From the NCBI GenBank assembly GCA_947627175.1, contig CANQVA010000002.1, positions 151,084 through 215,083 of the forward strand: a stretch of 64,000 bases of DNA, in the 5' to 3' direction. Below are positions 1-63,019 of this stretch, in pieces. The stretch's first letter is position 1. Each line of letters opens with the position of its first letter. Source of the stretch: an uncultured Ruminococcus sp. GTDB lineage: Bacteria > Bacillota > Clostridia > Oscillospirales > Ruminococcaceae. The position numbers were made by a program, and so were the translations under genes. A model generated the notes under the pieces. It was given only the letters and a program-made list of their open reading frames with translations, was not told the DNA's origin and did not search any database.

Positions 1-604
1 CAGATATGAAAGTTCTTAAAACTCCACAGCCGTCAATACAAGCCGCATCTTCAAGTTCTTTTGGTAGACCTCTGAAAAACTGTCTGAAAATAAGAATCAT
101 AAGACCCGAACGAATGCCGTTTCCCGTAAGTGCGGGAAGATACATTGTAAGCATATTATCAATAAGATTAACAGTAAACAGTCCTTTTATACCAAAATTC
201 ATAAATTGTGTATAAAGGGGTAGTGAAATGACTTGCGGTGGCACAAGAATCATCATTATAACTATTCTGAAAAGAAACTTTTTTCCCCTGAAATTGAACC
301 TTGCAAAACCATACCCCGTAACAGCACATGAAAACACCTGAACAAGTGAACAGCCGACATTCAGAATGATAGTATTTTTAAGAGCGTTTCCGAAATCCAT
401 AGCTTTTACAGTATCTCTTATAACGTCGAGAGTGAAATTTTCGGGAATCCATATCACAGCAGGATTATTCATATCATTTTTTTCCCTGAATGCACAGCTA
501 ATCATATATATAACAGGATAAATAATTATAAAACTTATTCCGACAAGAATTACAAACCTGAAAAAAGACCATATTTTTTCGGTAATTTTGCCTGCATCTG
601 CCAA
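1..604 (-). CDS. Carbohydrate ABC transporter permease, MalG type (partial, runs off left edge)
   Basis: This reading frame is absent from the ORF track because its stop lies outside the window. Translating the minus strand from a TTG codon at 604 gives MADAGKITEKIWSFFRF, followed by hydrophobic segments. The frame stays open to base 1 and ends within an EAA-type loop (EDAACIDGCGVLRTF), the permease contact site for the ATPase. An AGGTGGGA ribosome-binding site lies about six bases before the TTG. MalG-type inner-membrane permeases pair with a MalF-type partner to move sugars or oligosaccharides inward. The partner is the gene just upstream (620-1519), so this is the last visible gene of the eight-gene operon. 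The TTG start is inferred from the RBS and the open frame; the substrate is unknown. Confidence 0.85.
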   Translation of the reverse strand, partial: MADAGKITEKIWSFFRFVILVGISFIIIYPVIYMISCAFREKNDMNNPAVIWIPENFTLDVIRDTVKAMDFGNALKNTIILNVGCSLVQVFSCAVTGYGFARFNFRGKKFLFRIVIMMILVPPQVISLPLYTQFMNFGIKGLFTVNLIDNMLTMYLPALTGNGIRSGLMILIFRQFFRGLPKELEDAACIDGCGVLRTFIS

Positions 605-619
605 AACAATTCCCACCTT

Positions 620-1519
620 TCATTCAGATTCATAGAATACAAATCTGTTTAATATCATAACAGCAACGCCTATACCTGCCATTACTATAACAAAGTAAAT
701 CCACGACATAGCCGCCGCCTCACCGAAAGCCCATTCATTTCTCATATCGCTTATGCGTTCCATAACCGTATTCAGCGGACTTGTAAACGAGTCTATAACA
801 GTAAAAACAGTATTCACTAAAATAAATGGGCTTATATACGGAAAAGTTACTCTCCAGAAATATTCCCATGAAGTAGCACCCTCTATTTCTGCGACTTCTC
901 TTGCTGAACGTGGAATATTTTGCAATGATGCAAGAAAAATCAAAATCTGTATACCGCTGTTCCAGACTATCCCGAAAATATTGTCTGCAACTGTTGAAAT
1001 AATATCAACTGTTTTGTCACTTATTCCATATATACCGAGAAATTCAAGCAATTCACCTATTAAATCAGTTGACATCATTGTTGAAAAATTTGACATATCA
1101 TTATTTCCCGATGTTTCCATATCATTAGTTATAATTTTATAAACAGGCCCCGTTACAATAATTACAGGTAGAAAAAATATTGCCCTTGCCAAAGTTCTTC
1201 CCCTGAATTTCTGATTAAGAATAACAGCAATAAACATTGAAAATATGATAATCAACGGAGTTTTCCACAGCGTTTCAAAAAGCATATCACCGAGATATTC
1301 AGTGTATTTTCCGTCTTCGGTAAGTACTTTTATATATTTGTCCATTCCTACCCATTCAGTAACAGTTTTTCCCGATTCAACAGTAACTTCACTGAAAGAA
1401 TATAACAATGATTTTACAAGCGGAATAATGAAAAAAACAATAGTTCCGATAAGCCATATTGAAATAAAACCGTATCCGCAGAGGGATTTTTTCTTTGAAT
1501 ATGAAATTTTCTTTTTCAT
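620..1519 (-). CDS. Carbohydrate ABC transporter permease, MalF type (second pair)
   Basis: The 299-residue membrane protein has a basic N-terminus (MKKKISYSKKK) and about six hydrophobic segments. A clear EAA loop (EVAEIEGATSWEYFWRVTFPYISPFI) lies near residues 207-233. Length and motif fit the MalF/UgpA/LplB class of binding-protein-dependent sugar permeases. The start codon overlaps the stop of the DUF5696 gene by one base (TGATG), implying translational coupling. Residues 125-170, between two membrane segments, are longer and more polar than in the first-pair permease (6743-7636), so the two pairs are not simple duplicates. The substrate cannot be read from the sequence. Confidence 0.9.
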   Translation of the reverse strand: MKKKISYSKKKSLCGYGFISIWLIGTIVFFIIPLVKSLLYSFSEVTVESGKTVTEWVGMDKYIKVLTEDGKYTEYLGDMLFETLWKTPLIIIFSMFIAVILNQKFRGRTLARAIFFLPVIIVTGPVYKIITNDMETSGNNDMSNFSTMMSTDLIGELLEFLGIYGISDKTVDIISTVADNIFGIVWNSGIQILIFLASLQNIPRSAREVAEIEGATSWEYFWRVTFPYISPFILVNTVFTVIDSFTSPLNTVMERISDMRNEWAFGEAAAMSWIYFVIVMAGIGVAVMILNRFVFYESE

Positions 1520-3753
1520 CAGAAAACAACCTCCGTATAATTATTAAGTTTTATTATACTACCGTTTAAATCAATAGTTTTTTCATCAAAATCAGCTTTT
1601 ATTACAGTACCGTCTGACCATACCGACGTAATAATATTTCCTGAGTTTTCAACATTATAACTAACAATTGTTGAATCACAGACAGCTTGCAAAACAGGTT
1701 TAAGTATTTTATATTCAGCAGATATTGTGTCAATCCATTTTTCATAGTTTGCATAATACAGACCGTCATATTCAGTATCTTTAAGAACAGATGTTTCTTC
1801 ATAAATCATATCACATTTCAAACTGCTCCCCGTAACTGCCGACATAAGCAAAAGATTTTCAGCATCAGGGTCGGCATTCACAGCAGTTGAAGTATAAGGC
1901 ACAATTCCGTGCATGACCATCTGATAAAAAGGTATATCACAGTCGGATAAGTCAAAACCGCTTGACGAAAGAGGAACATTTATAATATGATTTACATACG
2001 GAAATACATATGCATTCGCACCGTCGGCAAGTATTCCGCCGTCAAGGGATTTTTCAATTTCTGAAAGATTTTCCGTGATAATATTCATTGTATCATTACG
2101 TGAAATTTTATTTTTGCCGTAGTCACCGTAAAGAAAAGTTGTAAGACTTCCAAATGAAACGCCGTTCAGTTCTGAATGTAAATAATTCGCCTGAATTTCG
2201 GAAAATATTTCATTGAAACATTCCGGTGAAAGCAACATACTGCTTTTCCGTAAACTGTCCGGCACTCCGTAAGCCAAATCATAATAATTTATTTCTGAAT
2301 AAGAACCCGATATTCTCACGGCTGAACCAGAAAACATATTATAGCCGTTTCCTGAATTAAAATAAATATTGTCTGATACAGGATAAAACTCATAATTATT
2401 ATTTTCGACAAAATCTACAAAATCCCTGAAATCTTTTTTTCCGCCGAGTGTGCGTGAAGGTACTGCACCGGTGTCTACTTTATTTTTTATGCCGTCATCA
2501 GTCCAGTTTCTGTATAAAACAACCATATTGTCAACACCGTTTTCTTTCAGTTTTTCGAGAATTATTTTTGCTCCGTCATAATCCGTCACTGACTGTTTCA
2601 TCATAAAAGGAATACCGAAAACAGACTTTTTTCTTTCCGTACCGCCGTACAGTTCAACATACAGGGAAAAATTATCAGGTTTTTTTTGCAGGTTACATTT
2701 ATTGAGAAGATAGTTTCTGTAACATTCGGCAACGTCTGTACAACTGACATTTTTCTTAGCAATCGGATAATACAGAATCTCAATGTCACCGCAATTTATA
2801 TCACCGTTTTCAAAAATTGTAAGTCTTTCGCCGTTACTTCCGGCAGTGTAATATGTATCTGTACCACGCAGAACAAAAGTAAAATTACAGGTATTGTAAT
2901 TACTTCCCGACTGTCCCGAAACTTCCGCAGAAATAAAAGCATTTGAATCACCTTTTGATGCTATCGCAAGCATCGCATTATTTTCTTTGACTATACCGTA
3001 AACAGGCAAATAAGCCTGCTCACTTACTGAATATCTTTTTTCAGGGACTAAAGCCTTATCGTTTCCATAAATATGCTGACTGTAAGGTTCTGCCCATGTT
3101 TTCCCGTTGTTGAAATTTATCAATGCACCGCTTCCGTCAGGGACAATAAAATAACCGCTTTCCGTATTGTCCGATGCTCCGAAACTTCCCAACAGTGTTA
3201 TTTCAACGGCAATATTTGACGCACTGCTTTCTTTAATTTCCGAAATTTCAAGACTTGCTTTCAGACAGTCATTTTCAAGAGTATAGTCAATGTAAAAACT
3301 GAACCCGGCATTTTTATAATCATAATAAAGCCTTATTCCGTTATCAATGTCAATAACTCCGACTTCACAATCATTGCTCCCTGAACGCAGAAAATTATTG
3401 TCTGAACGCTTTTCGGGAATACCATAACGCAAAACTGCTGACGAAAGAAGTTTTTCTTTTGTAACGTTCGGAGTTTCTGAATCAATATCACTTTCGGCAG
3501 GCGATGACCACCATATATAACCGTCTGATTTATCTTCAAGTCCAAAAACGGCAGTTTCATCATATACAAGAAGTCTGAATCTTTCATTTTCACAGGCAAT
3601 ACGCATTTCTTTATTGTGGGAAAAATTTATATTATCATAAATAATACTTTTATTATCGGCTTTCCGCATATCGTTTTCAGCGTTAATATTTACGGAAAAA
3701 GTCATAAGCATAACAGAAATCATACAAGTTAAAATAATTTTTATCCATTTCAT
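1519..3753 (-). CDS. Secreted DUF5696-type protein
   Basis: The 744-residue protein opens with a signal peptide (MKWIKIILTCMISVMLMTFSVNINA). A long, apparently single-pass-exported region follows, with a YIWWSSP motif near residue 80, a GSGALINF motif near residue 210 and many aromatic residues. This pattern matches my recollection of the DUF5696 family, which in Firmicutes sits beside sugar ABC transporters; no catalytic role is established. The central part (residues 360-600, with VVLYRNWTDDG and a run of alternating strands and helices) looks like a TIM-barrel-like fold and could be a divergent glycosidase; that is inference. It is coupled to the downstream permease by a one-base overlap. 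The start has a GGTGAT ribosome-binding site eight bases upstream. Confidence 0.7.
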   Translation of the reverse strand: MKWIKIILTCMISVMLMTFSVNINAENDMRKADNKSIIYDNINFSHNKEMRIACENERFRLLVYDETAVFGLEDKSDGYIWWSSPAESDIDSETPNVTKEKLLSSAVLRYGIPEKRSDNNFLRSGSNDCEVGVIDIDNGIRLYYDYKNAGFSFYIDYTLENDCLKASLEISEIKESSASNIAVEITLLGSFGASDNTESGYFIVPDGSGALINFNNGKTWAEPYSQHIYGNDKALVPEKRYSVSEQAYLPVYGIVKENNAMLAIASKGDSNAFISAEVSGQSGSNYNTCNFTFVLRGTDTYYTAGSNGERLTIFENGDINCGDIEILYYPIAKKNVSCTDVAECYRNYLLNKCNLQKKPDNFSLYVELYGGTERKKSVFGIPFMMKQSVTDYDGAKIILEKLKENGVDNMVVLYRNWTDDGIKNKVDTGAVPSRTLGGKKDFRDFVDFVENNNYEFYPVSDNIYFNSGNGYNMFSGSAVRISGSYSEINYYDLAYGVPDSLRKSSMLLSPECFNEIFSEIQANYLHSELNGVSFGSLTTFLYGDYGKNKISRNDTMNIITENLSEIEKSLDGGILADGANAYVFPYVNHIINVPLSSSGFDLSDCDIPFYQMVMHGIVPYTSTAVNADPDAENLLLMSAVTGSSLKCDMIYEETSVLKDTEYDGLYYANYEKWIDTISAEYKILKPVLQAVCDSTIVSYNVENSGNIITSVWSDGTVIKADFDEKTIDLNGSIIKLNNYTEVVF

Positions 3754-3771
3754 AACAGATTATCACCGTTT

Positions 3772-4401
3772 CTATGCCCTTATTCTGTAAACAATTTCCA
3801 TGTATACAGTTGAAATGAAAATATAAATCTGCTGTATAAGTGCCATAAAAAGCACAAGCAATGCAAGCATTATGAACATTGAAACAACAGTAAGAAATAA
3901 CGCTGAAAACGTCTTTAAAATCGTGTACTGATGTACTGACTTTACAGCGGAAAAAATAAGAATAGCTGTCCATAGAGTGCCTATTATTTCAACAGCCTGC
4001 ATGAAAATATATTCGTCCCTCACAAGAAAATGTGAAAGAATTGTATTTATATACATCTGAGAAATATAGGGAACAAGTGCATATGCACTGTAAATAAATA
4101 TATTTTTCATAGTCCCCTCTCCGTCAAGTATTGTACATACAGACCAGTTCCCGACCGTCCAAGCCATAAAAAGAACTATAGTTTTTATAAAATACGGAAT
4201 AATATTGAAAGTCCTGTCATATACAGCGTAAAATTGAAAACCATAAAGCCGTTCATGTGCAATTTCCGCAAAGAAAAACATGAACAATATAAATAAAGCT
4301 ATTTTCATTGAACCTGATTTTTTCCAACGCATATCTTCAAAACCCTCAAAAATATGAGTTACTGCGTGTTTCAGCCATTGTCTTTGCGTTAAATCCATCA
4401 T
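3772..4401 (-). CDS. Yip1-family integral membrane protein
   Basis: The 209-residue protein has a short soluble N-terminus (residues 1-28, including HIFEGFEDMRWKKSGS) and about five membrane segments. This layout is typical of the bacterial YIP1 (Yip1-domain) family, whose function is not known. The start overlaps the stop of the NHL/TPR gene by four bases (ATGA). It lies between the beta-propeller protein and the DUF5696 protein inside the sugar-uptake operon, so a role linked to the transporter is likely but unproven. No catalytic residues are evident. Confidence 0.7.
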   Translation of the reverse strand: MMDLTQRQWLKHAVTHIFEGFEDMRWKKSGSMKIALFILFMFFFAEIAHERLYGFQFYAVYDRTFNIIPYFIKTIVLFMAWTVGNWSVCTILDGEGTMKNIFIYSAYALVPYISQMYINTILSHFLVRDEYIFMQAVEIIGTLWTAILIFSAVKSVHQYTILKTFSALFLTVVSMFIMLALLVLFMALIQQIYIFISTVYMEIVYRIRA

Positions 4402-5855
4402 GAACGCCTTTTTCTCCTTTTTCTTATTTTTCTTAATACTGTAACAACAATTCCTGCTGTTACTGCAATAAATATTTTTCCTGAATTTTCTTTAAGAAAT
4501 ACGCTTCTGTATTCTTCAAAAGCCTTGTTGTATAGTTCGGAATTTCCCGCCATTTTGGCATATTTCATTGAGTTTTTATAATCGCCCTTTCTCAGCAGTG
4601 CAAAAGATGTACCATTATATGCATATGTATAATTTCCGTCACGTCTTAATACTTCATACCATAAGTCAAGGGCTTCCTCATAATATCCCGTGTTATACAG
4701 TTCAACCGCTTTGTGTACTGTTTTTCCGAAAGATGTTTCAGTAAAAACAGTTATATTGTTTTTCCGTGAATCAAGAACATAAATATTTTCCCCTGCCGAC
4801 TCAACAGCCGACGGTTTTTCAAAACCTCCTGCTTGTCCTGCAAGAGTTCCCACAATAAAAAGTAATCTGCATTCTTCATCATACTGAAAAATATGACCTG
4901 TACTGAAATCAAGGCAATTTATATTTCCACTGTCTGAAATATCAATGTCGCATATTGTCGAATCATGTATATTATAATATGAAGTGTCATATTTCGGTTT
5001 ATAGTCACCGAAAACAACGTCTTTATCTGCGAAAATGTTCTTTCCGGAAGGATTGAGTTTTTTCACCCTGTCAGCCGATACATCCGACGATTCTGTACAA
5101 GTGAAAATAAAATCACCCTTTATGTCAAAACCTGTTATTCCTGTAGGTACTGTCCTTGTACGCCGTTCTTTTTTCTTGTCTGACATGAAAATATTCATGA
5201 AATGATTACGGATAACTTTGAAAGTCGGTTCAACTCTGTTTGAGCCGTAAAAGCCTTTAAATTTTCCCTCCGGGCTGAACATTGCACAACCTGTTGTAAT
5301 ATTTTCAATAACGGAATATATATTTCCTGCTTTATCTGCAATTACACGTTTCGGGAGAAAAGTTTTATTATTGTCATAAATTTCGTCATCAGGCTTTGTA
5401 ATTTCAGAAATCACTTCCGAATCACGATTGACAATAAGTATTCTTGAATTTTGTGTATCAGCTATATAAATAATATCGTCCGAAACGAATACCCCCTCGG
5501 GCTTTTCAAGGGTAGTTAAAGAACCGTCCGACATTTTAAAACTGTCATAAACTTCGGAAACATTTTCAAGACTGCTGTCAATGCTGACAATTCTGTTGTT
5601 TCCCGTATCAGCTACATAGAATTTATCACCATCAAAAAATATATCACTCGGTTCATCAAACGAATCCGCACCTATATCATTCCCCGAAACAGTACGTTTT
5701 ACAATATATCCTGCCTGTGAGGGTACAGCATCGCCCCAGCGGTCATAATTATATGATATATAAGGTTCAGCATTCAGTGACAATAAGTTTATATTGCTTA
5801 ATAAAATCAAAATACAGAAAATCAGTATAAAAACATTTTTCAATTTCAGTTTCAT
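4398..5855 (-). CDS. Secreted NHL-type beta-propeller protein with TPR segment and C-terminal membrane anchor
   Basis: The 485-residue protein has an N-terminal signal or anchor (KNVFILIFCILILLSNINLLSLNA). NHL-like propeller repeats follow at about residues 60-380: FFDGDKFYVADTGNNRIVSID, VFVSDDIIYIADTQNSRILIVN and, later, SAGENIYVLDSRKNNITVF. Residues about 385-450 form a TPR-like helical pair (YNTGYYEEALDLWYEVLRRDGNYTYAYN). The C-terminus is one hydrophobic segment ending in KIRKRRKRRS, predicting an outward-facing protein tethered to the membrane. NHL propellers commonly bind proteins or ligands. Its position in the operon suggests an accessory or sensing subunit of the uptake system, which is inference. 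It starts two bases after the preceding permease stop. Confidence 0.75.
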   Translation of the reverse strand: MKLKLKNVFILIFCILILLSNINLLSLNAEPYISYNYDRWGDAVPSQAGYIVKRTVSGNDIGADSFDEPSDIFFDGDKFYVADTGNNRIVSIDSSLENVSEVYDSFKMSDGSLTTLEKPEGVFVSDDIIYIADTQNSRILIVNRDSEVISEITKPDDEIYDNNKTFLPKRVIADKAGNIYSVIENITTGCAMFSPEGKFKGFYGSNRVEPTFKVIRNHFMNIFMSDKKKERRTRTVPTGITGFDIKGDFIFTCTESSDVSADRVKKLNPSGKNIFADKDVVFGDYKPKYDTSYYNIHDSTICDIDISDSGNINCLDFSTGHIFQYDEECRLLFIVGTLAGQAGGFEKPSAVESAGENIYVLDSRKNNITVFTETSFGKTVHKAVELYNTGYYEEALDLWYEVLRRDGNYTYAYNGTSFALLRKGDYKNSMKYAKMAGNSELYNKAFEEYRSVFLKENSGKIFIAVTAGIVVTVLRKIRKRRKRRS

Positions 5856-5857
5856 TT

Positions 5858-6730
5858 CTAACTCCTGATACCTGAATAAGCCATAGTTTCAATTATCTGT
5901 TTCTGTGCAAGAGTAAACACCACAACAGGCGGAACAAGCATAAATACAGCCGCCGCCATAGCAATTCCTGCACGTGCAATACCTGCTGATGATATTTGAT
6001 TGACAACAGTTGGTAGTGTTTTGTACTGTTCATGAAATACAAAAGCCCCTGACTGAACATTCCATGATGACTGAAAAGCAAAAATAATAAGTGTCAATAA
6101 AGCCGGTTTCTGATTAGGCATGACAATCTGCCAACATATACGGAAAAGTCCTGCACCGTCTGTTTTTGCGGATTCTATTATTGAATCGGGAATTTGACTT
6201 ATTGACTGTTCCATGAGAAATAGTCCCATAGGTGAGGCAATTAAAGGAAGAATTACCGCAAGCAGACTGTCAATAAGATTCAGCTTTGCCATTACCATAT
6301 ATTGCATTATATAAATAACATTACTTTGATAAAGAAGTGAAATAACTATTATATTACTGATTAACTTTCTTCCGGCAAAACGGCATTTTGCAAGGACAAA
6401 AGCCGCCGTTGACGTAATTATACACTGAAACAACGTAACTGAAACGGTAACTGTTATGCTGTTGAATACATACCTTGAAAACGGTACTCTGTTCTGTCTG
6501 ATAATTTCAAACATATCCTTGAAATTATTCATAGTCGGACGGAGTGTATATAATTTCGGCGGAAATATAAAAAGTTCCTCAACCGGCTTGACAGACATTA
6601 CAAAAATAAGATAAATCGGAAAAAGCATGAAAATTCCCAGTACTGAAAGAAACAGAAATATCAGAACAGTACCGCCTTTTTTCCGTCCCATCTTTATACA
6701 TGAAGTCTTATTTTTTCTGATATTTGACAT
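5858..6730 (-). CDS. Carbohydrate ABC transporter permease, MalG type (first pair)
   Basis: The 290-residue membrane protein has six predicted membrane segments. The EAA loop reads ESAKTDGAGLFRICWQIVMPNQKPALL (about residues 187-213), matching the MalG family's E-A-A-x-x-D-G-A-x(3)-F consensus. It forms the inward sugar channel with the MalF-type protein encoded just upstream (gap 12 bases). The basic N-terminus ends in KMGRKKGG before the first membrane helix. The second MalG-type protein at the left edge is a distinct sequence, so the operon encodes two permease pairs. Confidence 0.92.
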   Translation of the reverse strand: MSNIRKNKTSCIKMGRKKGGTVLIFLFLSVLGIFMLFPIYLIFVMSVKPVEELFIFPPKLYTLRPTMNNFKDMFEIIRQNRVPFSRYVFNSITVTVSVTLFQCIITSTAAFVLAKCRFAGRKLISNIIVISLLYQSNVIYIMQYMVMAKLNLIDSLLAVILPLIASPMGLFLMEQSISQIPDSIIESAKTDGAGLFRICWQIVMPNQKPALLTLIIFAFQSSWNVQSGAFVFHEQYKTLPTVVNQISSAGIARAGIAMAAAVFMLVPPVVVFTLAQKQIIETMAYSGIRS

Positions 6731-6742
6731 TTCTGTTTCCCC

Positions 6743-7636
6743 TCAGTCCGTATATTTTCCGAAAACTCTGTTCACAGCCCTGTTCGCCATGTACATTACT
6801 ATAAAAAGTATCATACATATTGCAGAAGCATACCCCATTTCATAACGAACCCAGCCATAATCATATGCATGGGTCATTATAGTATGTGCCTTATAGTCCG
6901 TACTCGGAAAACCAACAACATTCTGTATAACTGTTCCGGCAGTAAAAGAACTTACAATCTGCATTACAGACGCAAAAAGAAGATGCGGTTTCATTGACGG
7001 AATAACTATATATACAAGTTCCTGCCACCTGTTGCTTATACCCTCCACTGCCCCGACTTCATACATTGAACGGTCAATATTCTGAAAACCTGCACGCATA
7101 GCAAGAAATCCTGCTCCAAGTGAAAGCCATAACTGCACAACAATAGCCGTTCCGAGTACATAATTTCCGTCTGTAAGCCATTGTATCGGCGATGTTATAA
7201 TACCTATATTTATAAGAAAAGAATTTAAATATCCGTTAATATCACCGCTGAAAATAATTTTCCATACTGAATATACATTTGCCATTGACGGAATATAAAA
7301 TATAAGCGTGAATATTGTTTTTAAATTTGAGGGCATTTCATTTATCAGCCATGCAAGCAGAAAACAAAGTACAAAACTTACAAACCCTGTAAAAAATGCA
7401 AATACAGCTGTAACTCCTATTGACTTTATAAAAATCTTATCCGACAGAAAAAGTGCGGTATAATTTGAAAGCCCTGTAAAATTCGGTTTCTGTACCATGT
7501 TGAAATCCGTAAATCCTATAGGTACAGACATAAGAACAGGTACAACTGTAAATATTATAAAAAGAATCATAAAGGGAGCAAGCATTAAATAACATTCCTT
7601 GTTTTTTCTTATTTCAGATAAAACATTCTTCAACAA
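6743..7636 (-). CDS. Carbohydrate ABC transporter permease, MalF type (first pair)
   Basis: The 297-residue protein starts in MLKNVLSEIRKNKECYLMLAPFMILFIIFTVVPVLMSV. This is the typical MalF/UgpA start, with a short cytoplasmic tail and a first membrane helix ending in a proline-containing turn. The EAA loop reads EVGAVEGISNRWQELVYIVIPSMKPHL. It lies two bases after the solute-binding protein gene and 12 bases before its MalG partner, so the three make a classical sugar importer core. The importer has no ATPase gene here and must borrow an MsiK/MsmK-like ATPase encoded elsewhere. Confidence 0.92.
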   Translation of the reverse strand: MLKNVLSEIRKNKECYLMLAPFMILFIIFTVVPVLMSVPIGFTDFNMVQKPNFTGLSNYTALFLSDKIFIKSIGVTAVFAFFTGFVSFVLCFLLAWLINEMPSNLKTIFTLIFYIPSMANVYSVWKIIFSGDINGYLNSFLINIGIITSPIQWLTDGNYVLGTAIVVQLWLSLGAGFLAMRAGFQNIDRSMYEVGAVEGISNRWQELVYIVIPSMKPHLLFASVMQIVSSFTAGTVIQNVVGFPSTDYKAHTIMTHAYDYGWVRYEMGYASAICMILFIVMYMANRAVNRVFGKYTD

Positions 7637-7638
7637 CG

Positions 7639-10551
7639 CTATTCTTTCCTTTCTTCATTTATGTTTTTCTGCTTTCTTTCTATTTCGTCGTTTATGTCAT
7701 GATTGTACCACAGAAATGTATCACGTGGGTTTTCATGTTCATTGACAACTTCCCTGAAAGCGTTCATAATATTTCTTGTAACGGCATATGACGACGGAAG
7801 GACGGGTATTTCAATAAGTTCTTCACGCTGGTCAAAAAGACGTGAAAGTTCACTGTCAGACCATGAAAGACGTTTAAGTGCCTCAGTATTGGCAGTGTTG
7901 AAACGTCCCATTGTGCCGAGAAGTCCCTCAATCTGATTTCCGTATCTGACTTGTGTATCCGTATCCGTAAACCACTTTATAAACTTCCACGCATTTTCAA
8001 TATTTTCCGCTTTCCTGAAAATAACAGCTCCCGAAGTGTTTGAGTTGGCGGCATGGGAAAGAGTACCATTATTTTCAGTTGCGGGAACAGGACAGAAATT
8101 CCATAATCCTCTTATTTCGGGGGCAACATATGAAAGCTGATTAAAAAATGTATAGTCCGAAATAACAAGCGGATATTCACCGGTTCTGAAACGGCTGAAA
8201 GCGTCGTATGACTGTTCAAAACTGTATTCTGTATAAAAGTCCGTCCACTTTTCAAACGCCTCAACAGCAACAGACGAATCAAAAGAAGATTTTGTCATTT
8301 TCTGATTATAATAGTTAATTCCCCTCTGTAACAAAAGCAATGCAAAAGTATTACCTGTTTCCGTTGATGGTGAAATATCAGTGGACGGCAAAACAAGTCC
8401 GACAGACATATAATTCCTCTGAATCGAGGGGAGCATATCAATTAAATTTTCCCACGTTTCGGGCGGAGAAGTATAACCGAGTTCAGAAAGAATGTCAGTG
8501 CGGTAAAAAAGCATCGGAAAAGACTGTGTTATCGGCAAACCGTACACACCGCCGTTATATTCATAGTGGGTCATTGCATTTTCCTGAAAACGTTCTGTTA
8601 CTTCCTGATAGTCGCAAAACTGCGATACATCAACAAGCAGATTTCTTGACGCAAGGTTCACGGGATATTCTCCGCCCAAAAATAACGCCACGTCAGGAGC
8701 TTTTCCCGCAAGTGAAGCCTCAACTATACCGCCCGTCACAAGGCTTACAGAAACGGGAATGCCTGTATTCCGCATAAATTCGTCTGCCATTTCCTTTACT
8801 GTTTCTGCCTGCTCACGTCCGAGATTGACCCATACATTCAGTGCCTTTTCACCCGTAACATCGGAAAGCGTGGAATAGTCCTCAAAAAAAGAACCAAAAA
8901 AAGCCTTTATTCCGAACCATAGCGACTTGAAAAAATTGCCCTTGCATTTTGAAAAATCAATTCCCGACGTTGCAAATTCAATATAATCTATTTCAAGAGG
9001 CTGTTCACGGCATTCTCTTATCCATGACGAAACAGAAGTTATACTCTCTTTAATCTGCGAAAGATAAAGCGGAATTTTCAGCGGTTTTTTTATGCACTTG
9101 TCAAGAATTACAGTCATTCTTTCAATAACTGCCGCCTCTGAACCTGATGTTCCCGACAAACTTTCAATATCATTCTGAATATCTTTCAGTTCTGACGAAA
9201 TTTCCTTGAATCCGTCAATAAGTCCCGGAATTTTTTCATGCACGTAATAATCCGTGTACTTGTCGGGAGATACCCCGGTAATCATCAGAATTTTTCTGTA
9301 ATATGTATTGAGTTCGGAAATAATATCTTCAAGTTTGCGGACGGAATTGCCTATTTCACCCGGAACACATTCCATTGTTAAAGTATGGTCACAGTCTGCT
9401 GTAAGCCATATATAAATATTTTCGCCGTCCGATTCGGGAGAAGCAATATTCCAGTCATTGCCATAATAAAATTTAACCTGATTCAATTCTTCACATGGTA
9501 CTTGACCATCTAAATATATACGCCTGTTTGAGTAAAAACCTCTCATTTTATTTTGACGGTACTTTATACCGATTTTATACCAACCGTCATTTTTTATATC
9601 TTCTTTCTTTATAATCCATGTGGCACATTGCAACGATTTTTTCCAGCTTTCAGCACCAAAAGTATTATACACTACTTTTACGGGGTCAGACGGCGAAACA
9701 AGATAATCTGTATTATCATATGTCGGAAAAAGCGTTGAATCAGATTTATATACAGCGTTTTCGCCCTCTATTCTGAAAATGTTTTCAGGCGTTGAAAAAA
9801 TATCAGCAGATGCACTGTATTCACTGTATGAAGGCAGTTTTTCGGGATTATAGAATTTAAAGCTGTCAATTACAAATTCCGCTCTTTCAGATTTAAAAGC
9901 GATTTCATGTTTTCCCTTTTCCAGATAAAAAAATAGTGGTTCATTGAAAAGTCCGTCAATATCTTTAAAATCGCTGTTTTGCCACATTCCCTGCTGAACC
10001 TGCGGAGAACGCACTTGATTTCCGTGCGAATCCGTGTATATATCTTTTTCATTGACCCATACTCTATTAAGAGTTATGCGTGAAGCCGTATCATACGGAA
10101 CTTTGCCGTCAATACTCATAGAAAATTCTATTGCAGAACTGTCTGATTCAAGCGGAAAATAAGTCATATTAACGCAGTAAATTCCCGTTTCCTCAACTTC
10201 TATATTATAGGAAATATTTCCGTTTCTGCTTTTCCATATAAGCACATTATTTTTCATTCCGTAACTGCCTTCTGAAAAATCTCCGTTTTCAGTTGAAATA
10301 AATTCAGTACCGATAATTTCAATAACCTTGTCGGGGCGTTTTTCCATGCAGTACAAATCATAATATTTACTGTAAGAAATTATATCTGTATCTTCTGTAT
10401 CAATACGGTAATAGTCTTTACACATAGCCGAAAATGTTTCATCTGATACTTGAAAATTTTCCGCAAAAGCTGACATTAAACCATTTCCGCAAAAAACGGC
10501 AAACGACATCAGACACGACAACAGGATAAAAAAGTATTTCTTTATCAACAT
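7639..10551 (-). CDS. Large extracellular solute-binding protein with N-terminal beta-sandwich modules
   Basis: The ORF track starts at 10617. That start lies within the promoter (TTGACA at 10612-10617, TATACT at 10589-10594), so the real start is the ATG at 10551, four bases after AGGTGA, giving 970 residues. A signal peptide ends near SAFA/EN; no good lipobox is present. Two aromatic-rich beta-sandwich-like regions follow (roughly residues 40-240 and 270-400), then a helical linker with possible coiled coil (about 405-520). A family-1 type solute-binding domain occupies about 590-950 (ALNVWVNLGREQAETVKEMADEF, YGLPITQSFPMLFYRTDIL). It would capture sugars for the permeases encoded downstream. 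Being roughly twice the usual length, it may bind polymer with the N-terminal modules. Confidence 0.85.
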   Translation of the reverse strand: MLIKKYFFILLSCLMSFAVFCGNGLMSAFAENFQVSDETFSAMCKDYYRIDTEDTDIISYSKYYDLYCMEKRPDKVIEIIGTEFISTENGDFSEGSYGMKNNVLIWKSRNGNISYNIEVEETGIYCVNMTYFPLESDSSAIEFSMSIDGKVPYDTASRITLNRVWVNEKDIYTDSHGNQVRSPQVQQGMWQNSDFKDIDGLFNEPLFFYLEKGKHEIAFKSERAEFVIDSFKFYNPEKLPSYSEYSASADIFSTPENIFRIEGENAVYKSDSTLFPTYDNTDYLVSPSDPVKVVYNTFGAESWKKSLQCATWIIKKEDIKNDGWYKIGIKYRQNKMRGFYSNRRIYLDGQVPCEELNQVKFYYGNDWNIASPESDGENIYIWLTADCDHTLTMECVPGEIGNSVRKLEDIISELNTYYRKILMITGVSPDKYTDYYVHEKIPGLIDGFKEISSELKDIQNDIESLSGTSGSEAAVIERMTVILDKCIKKPLKIPLYLSQIKESITSVSSWIRECREQPLEIDYIEFATSGIDFSKCKGNFFKSLWFGIKAFFGSFFEDYSTLSDVTGEKALNVWVNLGREQAETVKEMADEFMRNTGIPVSVSLVTGGIVEASLAGKAPDVALFLGGEYPVNLASRNLLVDVSQFCDYQEVTERFQENAMTHYEYNGGVYGLPITQSFPMLFYRTDILSELGYTSPPETWENLIDMLPSIQRNYMSVGLVLPSTDISPSTETGNTFALLLLQRGINYYNQKMTKSSFDSSVAVEAFEKWTDFYTEYSFEQSYDAFSRFRTGEYPLVISDYTFFNQLSYVAPEIRGLWNFCPVPATENNGTLSHAANSNTSGAVIFRKAENIENAWKFIKWFTDTDTQVRYGNQIEGLLGTMGRFNTANTEALKRLSWSDSELSRLFDQREELIEIPVLPSSYAVTRNIMNAFREVVNEHENPRDTFLWYNHDINDEIERKQKNINEERKE

Positions 10552-10588: not shown

Positions 10589-10617
10589 AGTATAACAATT
10601 TTCTTACTGACTGTCAA
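10589..10617 (-). promoter_or_regulatory. Promoter of the sugar-uptake operon
   Basis: On the minus strand, TTGACA (10617-10612) and TATACT (10594-10589) are separated by exactly 17 bases. Transcription would start near 10582, about 30 bases before the reassigned ATG at 10551. The promoter lies inside the ORF-track version of the gene, which argues against that longer start. Confidence 0.85.
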
Positions 10618-10835: not shown

Positions 10836-11576
10836 ATGGAAAAAGTCCTTGAAGTAAAGGGACTTACCAAGCAATATACAAAAGTACTTGCTGTGGATAA
10901 CGTTTCTTTCGATATAGGCGAGGGGGAAATATTCGCCCTTATAGGCCCTAACGGTGCCGGAAAAACTACTACAATAAGAATGATTTCAACACTTCTGAAA
11001 TCAACTTCCGGCGATGCTGTTATAGCAGGTTACAGCATAAACAAAGAACCAGAAAAAGTAAGGGAATATATTACATATTTGCCCGATGAAGCAGGTGCTT
11101 ATAAAAATATGACCGGTACAAACTATCTTAAATTTATGGCTGGTCTTTTTTACACCGACCCGAATAAAATTATTGAATGCGTGAACCGTGCAAAAGAAAT
11201 ATGCGGACTTGGCGAAAGACTTAACGACAAAATAGGCAGTTACAGCAGAGGCATGATAAGAAAACTCCTTCTTTCAAGAGCTGTTATGACAAAGCCTAAA
11301 CTTGCTATACTTGACGAACCGACAAGCGGTCTCGATGTATTGAATGCAATTGAAATAAGGAAGATGATAAAAAAACTCGCAAGTGAAGAAAAAATGTCAT
11401 TCCTGCTTTCGTCACACAATATGCTTGAAATTGAATTTGTTTCTGACCGTGTGGGAATTATTGCAAAAGGTCATCTTATGGTTACGGGTACGGGTGAAGA
11501 ACTCAAACAACGTTACAATGCATTGAATCTTGAAGAAGTTTTTGAAAGGGTGGTGATTGAAAATGAAATTCATTAA
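10836..11576 (+). CDS. ABC exporter ATP-binding protein, NatA-like
   Basis: The 246-residue ATPase has Walker A GPNGAGKTT (residues 37-45), a non-standard signature YSRGM (about 138) in place of LSGGQ, Walker B LAILDEP followed by the D-loop TSGLD, and a switch histidine in SSHNM. The spacing and the C-terminal region EVFERVVIE fit the NatA/CcmA branch, whose members energise export of Na+, drugs or peptides. AAAGGAG lies upstream of the ATG. The gene overlaps the permease gene, so the two are co-translated. The degenerate signature is common in this branch and is not taken as loss of function. Confidence 0.93.
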   Translation: MEKVLEVKGLTKQYTKVLAVDNVSFDIGEGEIFALIGPNGAGKTTTIRMISTLLKSTSGDAVIAGYSINKEPEKVREYITYLPDEAGAYKNMTGTNYLKFMAGLFYTDPNKIIECVNRAKEICGLGERLNDKIGSYSRGMIRKLLLSRAVMTKPKLAILDEPTSGLDVLNAIEIRKMIKKLASEEKMSFLLSSHNMLEIEFVSDRVGIIAKGHLMVTGTGEELKQRYNALNLEEVFERVVIENEIH

Positions 11577-12888
11577 CCTGCTTCAAAAAGAACTCAAAGA
11601 ACTTATAAATGCACAAATGATAGCAAGTCTTGTCTTAATAATGGCAATACTAATGTTTGTCGGCAACATAACTCAGAATGCCATTGATGACACAATAGAA
11701 GAAAACAACAACCCCAAAATCAATATAAGTGACCGTGATGACACAGATTTTACAAAAAGCCTTATAGAAACACTCAGAAGTACAGGGGCAGAAGTTAAAG
11801 AATTTGACACAGAGGGTGACGGCTATGCCGATATTCTTAAAAATAATGACATAAAAAATCTCGTCATTCTTCCTGAAGGATTAACTGAAACAATTGAAAA
11901 AAATGAACGCCCGCAAATTATTACAGTTTCAAGAATGACATCAGCGGCGGCAATGTCAAATATTTCAACAGGAAATTCAGGTGCAGTTGAATTGATTCAG
12001 AAAAGTATCGCCGATACTATCGCAGAAAGTTCAGGAATTACTACAGAAGAACTTGAACTTATAGAAAATCCCATAACATTGCAGGATAATACAGTTGTTG
12101 ATGATAAATCCGCCGAAATTTCCGTTAATAGTATAGTAAATAAAGTAATGATGCAGAATACAATTCTTCCGATTATTGTATTTCTTCTTATCATGATGAC
12201 TTCACAATCGCTTATCAGTTCAATTTCAAATGAAAAAATTGATAAAACACTTGAAACACTTCTTTCGTCGCCTGTATCAAGAACATCAATTATAACTGCA
12301 AAAATGCTTGCCGCCGCTGTTGTGGCACTTATCAATGCCGCCGCTTTCATGGTAGGATTTTCAAAATTTTTAAAAGGTGCATCGGCTGATGCAATAAGCG
12401 GTGTTGTATCAGATACTATGGGCGTTGACGAAGCTATAGAACAACTCGGTCTTTCATTGTCAGTCGGTGACTATATACTTGTCGGATTACAACTTTTCCT
12501 TACAATTATGATATGTCTTTCAGTTTCAATCATGCTGGGAGCGTTAGTCAATGATACAAAATCTTCACAGACTGTTATTATGCCTATTATAATTCTTGCA
12601 ATGGTTCCCTATATTATTTCAATGATATCAGATATAAATACTCTCCCTATGGCAATAAGAATTATTGTGTATGCTATACCGTTTACACACACATTTTCAG
12701 GAATATCAAATCTCATGTTCGGAAATAACACTATTTTCATATGCGGTCTTATATATCAGATAGTCATATTTTTTGTATGTATGTTCTTTGCCCTCCGTCT
12801 TTTCAATTCAGACAAAATTCTCACTATCTCCCTGAATCTCGGTGCAAAGTCAAAATATAACAGAAAAAAAGAAAAAACAAAAGATTAA
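11563..12888 (+). CDS. ABC-2 type exporter permease, NatB-like
   Basis: The ORF-track start (TTG, 11557) gives MKMKFIN. The ATG two codons later (11563) is better placed, about seven bases after GGTGGTG, and gives 441 residues. The layout is that of NatB/YhaP permeases: one N-terminal membrane helix (about residues 20-40), a large extracytoplasmic domain (45-205), then five or six helices. The IDKTLETLLSSPVSRTSIITAKMLAA segment is the conserved coupling loop of ABC-2 exporters. It forms a two-gene exporter with the overlapping ATPase. The substrate is unknown; Na+, a lipopeptide antibiotic or a peptide are possible. Confidence 0.9.
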   Translation: MKFINLLQKELKELINAQMIASLVLIMAILMFVGNITQNAIDDTIEENNNPKINISDRDDTDFTKSLIETLRSTGAEVKEFDTEGDGYADILKNNDIKNLVILPEGLTETIEKNERPQIITVSRMTSAAAMSNISTGNSGAVELIQKSIADTIAESSGITTEELELIENPITLQDNTVVDDKSAEISVNSIVNKVMMQNTILPIIVFLLIMMTSQSLISSISNEKIDKTLETLLSSPVSRTSIITAKMLAAAVVALINAAAFMVGFSKFLKGASADAISGVVSDTMGVDEAIEQLGLSLSVGDYILVGLQLFLTIMICLSVSIMLGALVNDTKSSQTVIMPIIILAMVPYIISMISDINTLPMAIRIIVYAIPFTHTFSGISNLMFGNNTIFICGLIYQIVIFFVCMFFALRLFNSDKILTISLNLGAKSKYNRKKEKTKD

Positions 12889-55913: not shown

Positions 55914-57299
55914 TTATTCAGATGAACCCTTTTCATTGACCTCTGAAATATATTTATCAACGACTGAATAAATTGAATCATATGTTTCACTCCAAGGTGT
56001 GCCACGTGCAGTAAGTCTTAAGCTATTGTCAAGCAATTCACCGCATTCTGCCGAAACTCCCTTTGAAACGTCAATAAAAGGGTTTGCTTCTGCAAGCGAC
56101 TGCATACTTTCTTTCATTTCAAACATTTCATCACTCCAGCCGTAATCGTCAGACATCTGCTTGTCAGCTATTGCACGTGTTTCCTCATCTTCCATAACAA
56201 ATCTCTTACAATCAAGAAATTTTGCAACGCCTTCAGGATTCTTTCCGCCCTTTACAAAGGCGTAAGCCTCTATTCCGACAGGTATATAATATTCATCTGC
56301 TTCGGGGTCTTTCGGCATCGGAACAAAAAAAGCATCATCACCGAAAGTGCTTTTCCACTCTGACGGCTTTTTATAGAATTCATACAATCCGCACGGATAG
56401 AAAAGTGTTTTTCCCTCACCGATATAAGCCGGTTTATCGTTCCAGCCGTAATTTTCCGAACCAATTGCTATAAGATTATCCTTGTAAAGTTCATATATCC
56501 AATTCTGAACACGTTCCATTTCAGGCGTACCGAGATTATTTACGAGTTTTCCGTTTTCAAAGCCTACAGAGGGAATACCAATTGTATTGATAAGTCCAAA
56601 TTCAAACCACCAGCCGTCTATGCCGTAACGCTGATTTTCAGGGTCAACAAATTTTTCAAGCATATCCTGAAATGTGTCCCACGTCCATTCACCGTTTGCA
56701 TAAAGTTCAGCCGGGTCTTGTAAACCGGCTTCCTGAATAGTTTTTCTGTTATATATAACAGCACAATTGTCACCTGCTATACGTGTAACAGCTATATAAT
56801 GACTGCCATTCCATACAAGACTATCATTCATTTCACGTACACCGTCCCAGAGTGGCGAATCAAAGTTAATATAATCATCAGCAGGAACAAACATAGAACG
56901 AACAACGCCTTTCGGGAAAGCGTCAAGGTCTCCCGCATAAAATAAATCAATTCCTTCATCACCGTTTATAGACTTTGCAAGCTGTTCATAACGTTCTTCA
57001 TAAGTACACTGATGCCATTCAATATTTCCGCCGTAGCGTTCCTGAAATGCCACAAGAAAAGCCGGTGTGCTTTTTCCGAGGTTGTTGTCGGAATTTATAT
57101 CCCAATCCGAAAGCCACTTTATAGTCTTGTTTTCAAGTTCGCCTGTAAGAAGTTCCGAATCAGATACATTTGAACTTATTGCCTCTCTTGTGGAAGAATC
57201 AACGTCCATGCCTGTATTTGATTTATCCGAATCTCCGCAACTAAAAAATGATACAGACAACACTGTAACTAAAAATGAAGAAACAACAAATTTTTTCAC
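55914..57299 (-). CDS. Extracellular solute-binding lipoprotein (family 1), orphan
   Basis: The GTG at 57299 follows AAAGGAG and gives MKKFVVSSFLVTVLSVSFFSCGDSDKSN, a good lipoprotein signal with cysteine 21; the ORF-track start 21 codons earlier reads through the ribosome-binding site (461 residues). The mature part shows the SBP_bac_1 pattern: TIKWLSDWDINSDNNLGKSTPAFLVAFQERYGGNIEWHQ, GSHYIAVTRIAGDNCAVIYNRKTIQEAGLQDPAELYANGEWTWDTFQDML and the TLFYPCGLYEFYK segment. It should bind sugars or oligosaccharides. No permease genes adjoin it; it is the last gene of the galE-metF operon, 22 bases after the previous stop. Confidence 0.88.
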   Translation of the reverse strand: MKKFVVSSFLVTVLSVSFFSCGDSDKSNTGMDVDSSTREAISSNVSDSELLTGELENKTIKWLSDWDINSDNNLGKSTPAFLVAFQERYGGNIEWHQCTYEERYEQLAKSINGDEGIDLFYAGDLDAFPKGVVRSMFVPADDYINFDSPLWDGVREMNDSLVWNGSHYIAVTRIAGDNCAVIYNRKTIQEAGLQDPAELYANGEWTWDTFQDMLEKFVDPENQRYGIDGWWFEFGLINTIGIPSVGFENGKLVNNLGTPEMERVQNWIYELYKDNLIAIGSENYGWNDKPAYIGEGKTLFYPCGLYEFYKKPSEWKSTFGDDAFFVPMPKDPEADEYYIPVGIEAYAFVKGGKNPEGVAKFLDCKRFVMEDEETRAIADKQMSDDYGWSDEMFEMKESMQSLAEANPFIDVSKGVSAECGELLDNSLRLTARGTPWSETYDSIYSVVDKYISEVNEKGSSE

Positions 57300-57321
57300 T
57301 CCGCACACTCCTTTCGGATTT

Positions 57322-57996
57322 TTACCTTTCCGAACACGTCCGACCGTTTGCCGAAAATGCACAGCTGTCTTTCATTCTGCATGAATCACAGCCTTTTTTT
57401 CCATGATTAACGGGATTTTCAGATATTCCTATAATTGCAGTAACAGATTTTGACGGAATAAGCAGACTGTTTTCTGTAACGGTAAGCCCTATTCTCCTTT
57501 GTGCATTCAGAAATATAAGCAGTTCTTTCTGTATGTCAAGCGGTAAATCACCGTATCCGGCACTGAAACGCCATGTACGGTACTTTGCTTTTATATTTTC
57601 AAAAATTTCCTTTTCAGCAAGTTCACAAGCCTGCTCAACTCCTGCACTGCACAGACAATCAACCGCAAGGGCTTCCGCCATGTCTATAACGGCAGTACGG
57701 CGAATGAGTTTATCAGCCTCCGCCGAAAGCGTTACAGCCATAACTATTGCTTCTGTACAGCCTGAAAGATGTTTTCTTATATCACTTCCTGAAAGCATTT
57801 TATTTATACCGCCGAGAAAAACACCGTTTTCATCAAATTCAACAGTTGTTTTGCGGTAAACATATTTTGGGCGTACAGATTCCCTTACAATAATTTCACA
57901 TCTGTCAATCATTTCCGCTATTCTGTCATCGGGAACACCTTTTATTCCCATATAACGGCAAACTTCTTTCTTTGAAATGGGATTCAATTTCATCAT
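57322..57996 (-). CDS. Vitamin B12-dependent methionine synthase activation-domain protein
   Basis: The 224-residue protein matches the MetH activation (reactivation) domain: AVTLSAEADKLIRRTAVIDMAEALAVDCLCSAGVEQACELAEKEI and the SAM-binding RFSAGYGDLPLDIQKELLIFL (R-x-S-x-G-Y). The C-terminal 30 residues add a cysteine cluster, GCDSCRMKDSC, typical of the free-standing clostridial form. It donates a methyl group from SAM to reactivate oxidised cobalamin on a MetH encoded elsewhere. Its start overlaps the metF stop by four bases (ATGA), agreeing with a shared pathway. Confidence 0.92.
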   Translation of the reverse strand: MMKLNPISKKEVCRYMGIKGVPDDRIAEMIDRCEIIVRESVRPKYVYRKTTVEFDENGVFLGGINKMLSGSDIRKHLSGCTEAIVMAVTLSAEADKLIRRTAVIDMAEALAVDCLCSAGVEQACELAEKEIFENIKAKYRTWRFSAGYGDLPLDIQKELLIFLNAQRRIGLTVTENSLLIPSKSVTAIIGISENPVNHGKKGCDSCRMKDSCAFSANGRTCSER

Positions 57997-61975: not shown

Positions 61976-63019
61976 TTAGTCATTCTTCTTTCTGAGAACA
62001 AATGCTGTACCGATTGCAACTGCAAGACCTGCTGCTGCTACGCCTACACCTGCAACACCTGTCTTAGGTGAGCTCTTTGCACTGCTGTTGTCGCTACCAC
62101 CTTTCTTAGATGTGCTTGTGCTGCTTGTGCTTGTTTCTGTATTTTTATTTGTAGACTGTGTATCTGTAGGCTGTGTCTCTGTAGGCTCTGTAGTAACTGA
62201 ACCTGAAGTTGTATCAGTTGTAGTTGTTGAAGATGTAGATGTTGTAGATGATGTAGATGTTGTTGAAGATGTAGATATTGTAGTTGTTGTAGGCTTTGAT
62301 GTTGTTGTAGTTGTAGTAGTTGTTGTTGTTGTTGTAGTTGTTGTAGTAGTAGTTGTTGTAGTTGTTGTTGTTCCTTCGTCTTCAATCTGAATGTATCCCG
62401 GTACAAGACCCTGAGTAAATACATAGCCCTGCATAAGCTGACCTGTATGGTTATCTGACTTATTTGTGAACTTATCAACAGCGTTAGTTGAACTTCTGTA
62501 TACTATTTCAATCGGGTACTTGTCGCCTGCTGCAACATCTTCAGGAAGATTGAATGCCATTGTATAAAGTACGCCGTCGAAACCAAAGTCACCTGAACCT
62601 GATGTTGTGCAGAAAACACCATTTGTATATTCTTCAGTAGTAAGTGAGAGATATTTATTATCTTGACCTAAATTAACATCAGGTAAACCTAACTTGTTCT
62701 TTACAATTGAAAGACGTGGGTCATAGTCAAAATGCATACCTGTAGGAGCCCACTTTTCATCAGTACCGCCTGAAACAGTTACAGCAATCTGAACAGGAGT
62801 ACCGCTTGCAACGAGTTCCTTAGCCTCAGCAAGAGTAAGAGTTACTTGGTCAACTGTAACTATAGGCTTGATTTCAGACTGTGCAATTTCATCTGCAGTG
62901 AATCCGTTATCAGCACCTCTGATTTCATCAGCAGCAAAAGCTGAAACTGAAACAGCTGAAACTGCAACAGCAGAAACTGCAAGTGCTGCAAATGCTCTCT
63001 TTAAATAATTAGTCTTCAT
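61976..63019 (-). CDS. scaE: ScaE-type cell-wall-anchored cohesin (cellulosome anchoring scaffoldin)
   Basis: The 347-residue protein has a signal peptide (MKTNYLKRAFAALAVSAVAVSAVSVSAFA) and one cohesin (about residues 45-210). Its segments TGMHFDYDPRLSIV, TNGVFCTTSGSGDFGFDGVLYTM, DVAAGDKYPIEIVYR and QLMQGYVFTQGL match the ScaE cohesin of R. flavefaciens as I recall it. A threonine-rich linker (about 215-305), including a run of about 24 threonines, precedes SPKTG, a hydrophobic helix and RKKND, a sortase anchor with S for the usual L. ScaE binds XDoc dockerins and anchors the cellulosome to the wall. It follows the XDoc gene by 75 bases with a hairpin between. Confidence 0.93.
   Translation of the reverse strand: MKTNYLKRAFAALAVSAVAVSAVSVSAFAADEIRGADNGFTADEIAQSEIKPIVTVDQVTLTLAEAKELVASGTPVQIAVTVSGGTDEKWAPTGMHFDYDPRLSIVKNKLGLPDVNLGQDNKYLSLTTEEYTNGVFCTTSGSGDFGFDGVLYTMAFNLPEDVAAGDKYPIEIVYRSSTNAVDKFTNKSDNHTGQLMQGYVFTQGLVPGYIQIEDEGTTTTTTTTTTTTTTTTTTTTTTTTSKPTTTTISTSSTTSTSSTTSTSSTTTTDTTSGSVTTEPTETQPTDTQSTNKNTETSTSSTSTSKKGGSDNSSAKSSPKTGVAGVGVAAAGLAVAIGTAFVLRKKND
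62283..62372 (-). repeat. Threonine-codon trinucleotide repeat in the scaE linker
   Basis: The plus strand is almost purely GTT/GTA triplets here, coding for a run of threonines on the minus strand. Triplet slippage would change linker length without shifting the frame. The plus-strand VVVV ORF at 62088-62390 is a by-product of this repeat. Confidence 0.85.

Follow-up and report, generated by a model that had tools for sequence, protein, structure and literature searches.

The left end of the 64,000-nucleotide stretch of DNA analysed here (the window) encodes a conserved eight-gene module, a variant of the CUT1 importers with an undescribed accessory triad of NHL, Yip1, and DUF5696 proteins. 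The module has the CUT1 feature of a solute-binding protein (SBP) together with MalF/MalG-type permeases, here in two pairs, and the gene set is unusual for its fixed accessory triad and for the loss of the GH129 catalytic residues in DUF5696. We consider it fairly probable that the module is a twin CUT1 importer for plant-polysaccharide fragments, equipped with a scaffold, a pseudo-GH129 subunit, and a shared ATPase. Uptake of large plant glycans by Gram-positive fibre degraders is less well described than the Sus systems of Bacteroidota, and the module offers concrete, testable genes for this process in fibre degraders of the rumen and gut.

Organization of the importer operon

All genes and families named in the original prediction were confirmed on the minus strand, by Pfam or, in the case of MalF2, through its relatives (Table 1). 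MalF2 is the sole permease below the Pfam cutoff and its identity is clear from these relatives, while the Yip1 domain scores above its cutoff (35.7 bits vs 28.6). For the protein described as NHL/TPR, the NHL assignment stands; the TPR part was recognized by eye, with no Pfam TPR match. The most likely start of SBP1 is the ATG at 10551. The genes are transcribed in the order SBP1-MalF1-MalG1-NHL-Yip1-DUF5696-MalF2-MalG2 as a single tight operon, with intergenic gaps of 2–18 bp or overlaps of 1–4 bp. MalG2 ends at G000:C2:150776 (L002:16777), 308 bp left of the window, and the operon stops there. Transcription of the whole set from one promoter, as had been proposed, agrees with a strong extended -10 match before SBP1 and with a search for terminators within the operon, which returned none that was convincing (both by consensus matching).

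Left of the window, beyond MalG2, we searched for an ATPase and a second SBP and found neither; four lipoprotein-like genes and, further off, ribosomal-protein genes lie on this side. These four tandem paralogs with E/T/S-rich linkers (L002:13144-16582) are located directly downstream of MalG2, and the one tested had no Pfam match. An ABC-2 type exporter, consisting of an ATPase and a permease (window 10836-12888, plus strand), is oriented divergently from the importer operon.

Table 1. Predicted promoter and genes of the importer operon in the window, in the order of transcription.
Feature	Position in window	Strand	Evidence
Predicted promoter TTGACA-17-TATACT, extended -10 TG	10589..10617	-	11/12 consensus match only
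SBP1, 970 aa, SBP_bac_1	7639..10551	-	Pfam E 7.5e-23
MalF1-type permease, EAA loop kept	6743..7636	-	BPD_transp_1
MalG1-type permease, EAA loop kept	5858..6730	-	BPD_transp_1
NHL beta-propeller, TPR-like region, C-terminal membrane segment 459-477	4398..5855	-	NHL E 9.6e-11
Yip1-family multi-span membrane protein	3772..4401	-	Yip1 E 1e-8
DUF5696, secreted or anchored, probable pseudo-GH129	1519..3753	-	E 6.9e-150
MalF2-type permease, EAA loop kept	620..1519	-	Likeness to relatives
MalG2-type permease, 5' part in window	2..616	-	BPD_transp_1

SBP1 carries a signal peptide followed by two jelly-roll modules (residues about 77-395), a helical spacer (about 400-515), and the sugar-binding domain SBP_bac_1 (about 570-940). 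In the structure model, the N-terminal half appears as two beta-sandwich modules. The second module gave a profile match to 5x7g (CBM35/CBM6-like, E 3.7e-6) and the first a weak match to the CBM35 of a GDSL enzyme (E 0.012), neither having a Pfam match. Since Foldseek searches with full SBP1 returned solely SBP-domain matches among the best 50, the CBM-like reading of this half rests on the profile matches and the strand pattern of the model. The closest solved relative of the sugar-binding domain is the beta-1,2-glucooligosaccharide-binding protein Lin1841 (5YSB, E 4.3e-20), which, unlike SBP1, has no CBM-like N-terminal half; at about 20% identity, its substrate is not transferable to SBP1.

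The eight-gene set is conserved across Bacillota

To follow the gene order in related genomes, we used profiles of the eight proteins to survey 121 loci drawn from the same family, from other families of its class, and from named GTDB genomes. In 97 of these loci, all eight genes are present and identically ordered, with DUF5696 diverged to about 27% identity, which supports the set as a conserved unit. Another 19 are cut by contig ends yet consistent with this order, four contain all eight genes but with a tandem copy, frameshift, or insertion, and one (L102) holds a stand-alone DUF5696 relative. In L085, an insertion with two reverse-strand ORFs (L085:5332-10729) interrupts the DUF5696 gene. 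As 80 of the 121 loci come from close Ruminococcus relatives, these 80 are not independent; among the 40 other loci, identity of DUF5696 to the window copy falls to about 20%. The module is found in Ruminococcus flavefaciens and R. albus and also in genomes of the same phylum outside the class, including genomes of 6.8–7.3 Mb. It spans a wide range of Bacillota, and it has multiplied in single genomes beside enzymes for different polymers.

Across 36 loci sharing <50% DUF5696 identity with one another, the pairwise distances of the eight proteins are correlated (0.74-0.93), which partly reflects shared ancestry. NHL and Yip1 are fused into one protein in 17 of the 121 loci. The predicted membrane or surface location of the accessory proteins was supported, and a literature search for a described importer with NHL/Yip1 proteins found none. 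SBP1 and DUF5696 are equally numerous in the window's genome (G000) as well as in G178, G285, and G698, which was considered as evidence of obligate pairing. We dropped this argument because DUF5696 copies outnumber SBP1 in G694 and the DUF5696 counts of the other genomes are lower bounds.

The module combines two separable importers

In 22 loci representing several families, the gene right after MalG2 encodes a second SBP of about 480 aa. This SBP is absent throughout the Ruminococcus clade, the window included, where MalF2-MalG2 is retained; the second SBP has been lost in this clade. Furthermore, the two halves also occur apart in a few lineages. L194 and L198 carry an NHL/Yip1–DUF5696–MalF2–MalG2–SBP2 block without SBP1–MalF1–MalG1, adjoining pectic lyase, alpha-L-rhamnosidase, or apiosidase-like genes, L216 and L221 contain SBP1–MalF1–MalG1 alone, and in L202 the halves are in opposite order. 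The accessory triad belongs with the second permease pair and, given the second SBP in 22 loci and the separate halves, we regard the module as a merger of two importers. The original prediction had set its single system against two adjacent ordinary transporters, the second with an ATPase and SBP of its own just to the left. No such genes are present here, but the second SBP of the relatives and the separability of the halves qualify this part of the proposal.

In the window, MalF2-MalG2 would act as a second importer, probably fed by SBP1 or by an SBP encoded elsewhere. A search of the window's genome for a true ortholog of the second SBP yielded only distant SBPs. The window also encodes an orphan SBP_bac_1 protein of 482 aa with a lipobox-like start and no adjoining permease genes (55914-57362, minus strand), which could serve MalF2-MalG2 in trans. 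SBP1 itself may capture glycans via its two CBM35-like modules and deliver oligosaccharides to MalF1-MalG1, while the NHL propeller and Yip1 would form a membrane scaffold. Such an arrangement presumably involves a physical complex, and the single surface assembly of the operon products suggested earlier is plausible. Since the halves are separate in L194, L198, L216, and L221, such a complex may not be obligate.

A more far-reaching model, which we put forward tentatively as a possibility, is a Gram-positive supercomplex for glycan uptake, functionally parallel to SusCD, in which an NHL-Yip1 membrane scaffold would hold the two permease pairs and a pseudo-glycosidase would be the glycan receptor. 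The CBM-bearing SBP would hand long oligosaccharides to both pumps, and the many paralogs may be re-used for different plant polymers. The Sus-type systems of Bacteroidota couple surface glycan capture to import, with paralogs located beside substrate-specific enzymes. The module resembles them in its proposed combination of glycan capture with import and in having many paralogs near substrate-specific enzymes, but it is an ABC importer in a Gram-positive membrane, and its operon lacks SusC and SusD genes.

Conversely, the operon might encode two ordinary, independent CUT1 importers whose order is kept by a common substrate, with the accessory proteins co-transcribed but not binding to them. 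We think this unlikely. It would account for the 22 loci in which MalG2 is followed by another SBP, for the half modules, and for the EAA loops kept in all four permeases; however, NHL and Yip1 remain linked to DUF5696 and MalF2-MalG2 even between very highly diverged loci, and the Ruminococcus clade has retained MalF2-MalG2 despite lacking the second SBP.

DUF5696 has a GH129 fold without the catalytic residues

The AlphaFold2 model of DUF5696 (pLDDT 88.6, pTM 0.89) matched GH129-type enzymes best in Foldseek (5opq, E 1.7e-29), followed by GH101. The likeness to NagBb (5wzn) covers the whole-length fold, with a TM score of 0.73–0.75 on the target, and profile searches by sequence agree (8rzk/5opq E 3e-12, 5wzn 2.6e-10). 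DUF5696 resembles NagBb (GH129) and the ZgGH129-like 3,6-anhydro-D-galactosidase in fold (TM about 0.75) and profile (E 3e-12 to 3e-10), but unlike GH129 enzymes it lacks the set of D330, D435, and E478 and sits in a transporter operon. D330 and E478 of NagBb are positions that we take to be catalytic as well. Asp435 is a catalytic residue of NagBb (PMC5698469).

At the positions of NagBb D330, D435, and E478, the window protein has K423, S536, and D577, and an independent profile–profile alignment (E 1e-41) gave the same mapping. None of the 132 module copies has a complete triad: 73 keep none of the residues, 51 keep one, and eight keep two. All nine stand-alone relatives, in contrast, have D, D, and E. 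Since the triad is incomplete in all module copies and acidic residues are conserved to about 87% at most across the module family (31 copies), DUF5696 of the module is, as judged from its sequence, probably a pseudo-glycosidase, and the family would be an undescribed one. A search for DUF5696 by name across 5.39 million papers found no mention.

It is very unlikely that DUF5696 is instead still active, with catalytic residues at other positions, and trims glycans right before uptake. The full GH129-like fold and the variation of catalytic residues among GH129-like enzymes (PMC5698469, ZGAL_3152) would agree with activity, but no near-invariant acid is available among the 31 copies, and all three NagBb positions vary freely in the module while the stand-alone relatives keep them. 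These relatives (L102:8931-10616 and eight loci, L203-L210) are GH129-like proteins of about 570-600 aa with the catalytic acids kept, and we identified no characterized enzyme of this clade.

The preferred reading of DUF5696 is a pseudo-glycosidase. The protein has a signal peptide or an N-terminal membrane segment, with lipobox-like cysteines in some relatives (by eye), which places it outside the membrane. There it may, as a subunit of the MalF2-MalG2 half, bind glycans or dock to the transporter. The heavy chains 4F2hc and rBAT, whose ectodomain is an inactivated TIM-barrel glycosidase fold, serve amino-acid transporters. The likeness, an inactive glycosidase fold together with a transporter, is an analogy of function only; 4F2hc/rBAT are eukaryotic, belong to the GH13 lineage, and work with another transporter type.

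A shared ATPase may energize both permease pairs

As originally stated, the operon contains no ATPase, and we found none on either side, including its extension to the left. The original prediction saw this absence as unusual, which was not borne out: the window's genome encodes a single MalK/UgpC-type ATPase at G000:C6:73643-74770, an orphan of the MsmX/UgpC type with no ABC genes beside it in the flanking stretch examined. In Bacillus subtilis, MsmX energizes several sugar importers (PMC5730181, PMC7658222). The EAA loop, to which the ATPase docks, is kept in 117/117 MalF1, 115/116 MalG1, 123/125 MalF2, and 118/122 MalG2 sequences. Given the lone orphan ATPase, the kept EAA loops, and the MsmX precedent, the missing local ATPase is ordinary, and we infer that the orphan enzyme would drive both permease pairs.

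In one relative, a UgpC/MalK-type ATPase gene lies directly upstream of SBP1. ABC ATPase genes also precede SBP1 in five related genera (L074, L075, L076, L077, and L080); these were not counted as importer ATPases because the one tested, which has an AbrB/MazE-like tail, best matched LolD-type exporter models and not MalK. With CUT1 importers that share an ATPase (B. subtilis MsmX; AraNPQ, YtcQP-YteP, and others), the module has in common an SBP and a MalF/MalG-type pair, the lack of an ATPase of its own, and a genome with a single multitask ATPase (PMC5730181, PMC7658222). Unlike the MsmX-served importers, it has two permease pairs and the NHL/Yip1/DUF5696 triad in one conserved operon, and an SBP with CBM-like modules.

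Genomic context points to plant glycans as substrate

In relatives' loci chosen for inspection, for which no background rate is available, the module neighbors include GH10, GH43, SASA esterase, GH26, and GH9 enzymes, GH3 with a GDSL esterase, GH95, GH36, GH106, a pectic lyase, and apiosidase-like proteins; in these chosen loci they cover xylan, mannan, cellulose, and pectin. Genome G178 contains four module copies, one beside GH10/GH43/SASA genes and another beside GH26. No glycoside hydrolase gene lies beside the window copy, so that its role in plant-glycan uptake is one we infer from relatives and ecology. The window's genome has 64 dockerin matches, which mark a cellulosome-type fibre degrader, and few CUT1-type permeases; its near relatives with names belong to Ruminococcus. 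Glycan uptake, as first proposed, is the best reading of these data.

It is highly improbable that the module in this organism imports or senses its own envelope or host glycans and not plant-fibre fragments, a role with which the missing glycoside hydrolase neighbors and the histidine kinase/AraC regulators adjoining the module in some relatives would agree, but against which stand the dockerin-rich, cellulosome-type genome with its few CUT1-type permeases and the plant-polymer enzymes beside many relatives' modules.

Transcriptomics of R. albus 7 lists cellulose-induced ABC operons (PMC4300822), which could not be mapped onto the twin-importer module. Elsewhere in the window (61976-63019, minus strand), a secreted protein, cohesin-like by eye and with no Pfam match, has a threonine-rich linker and a C-terminal PKTG-like anchor.
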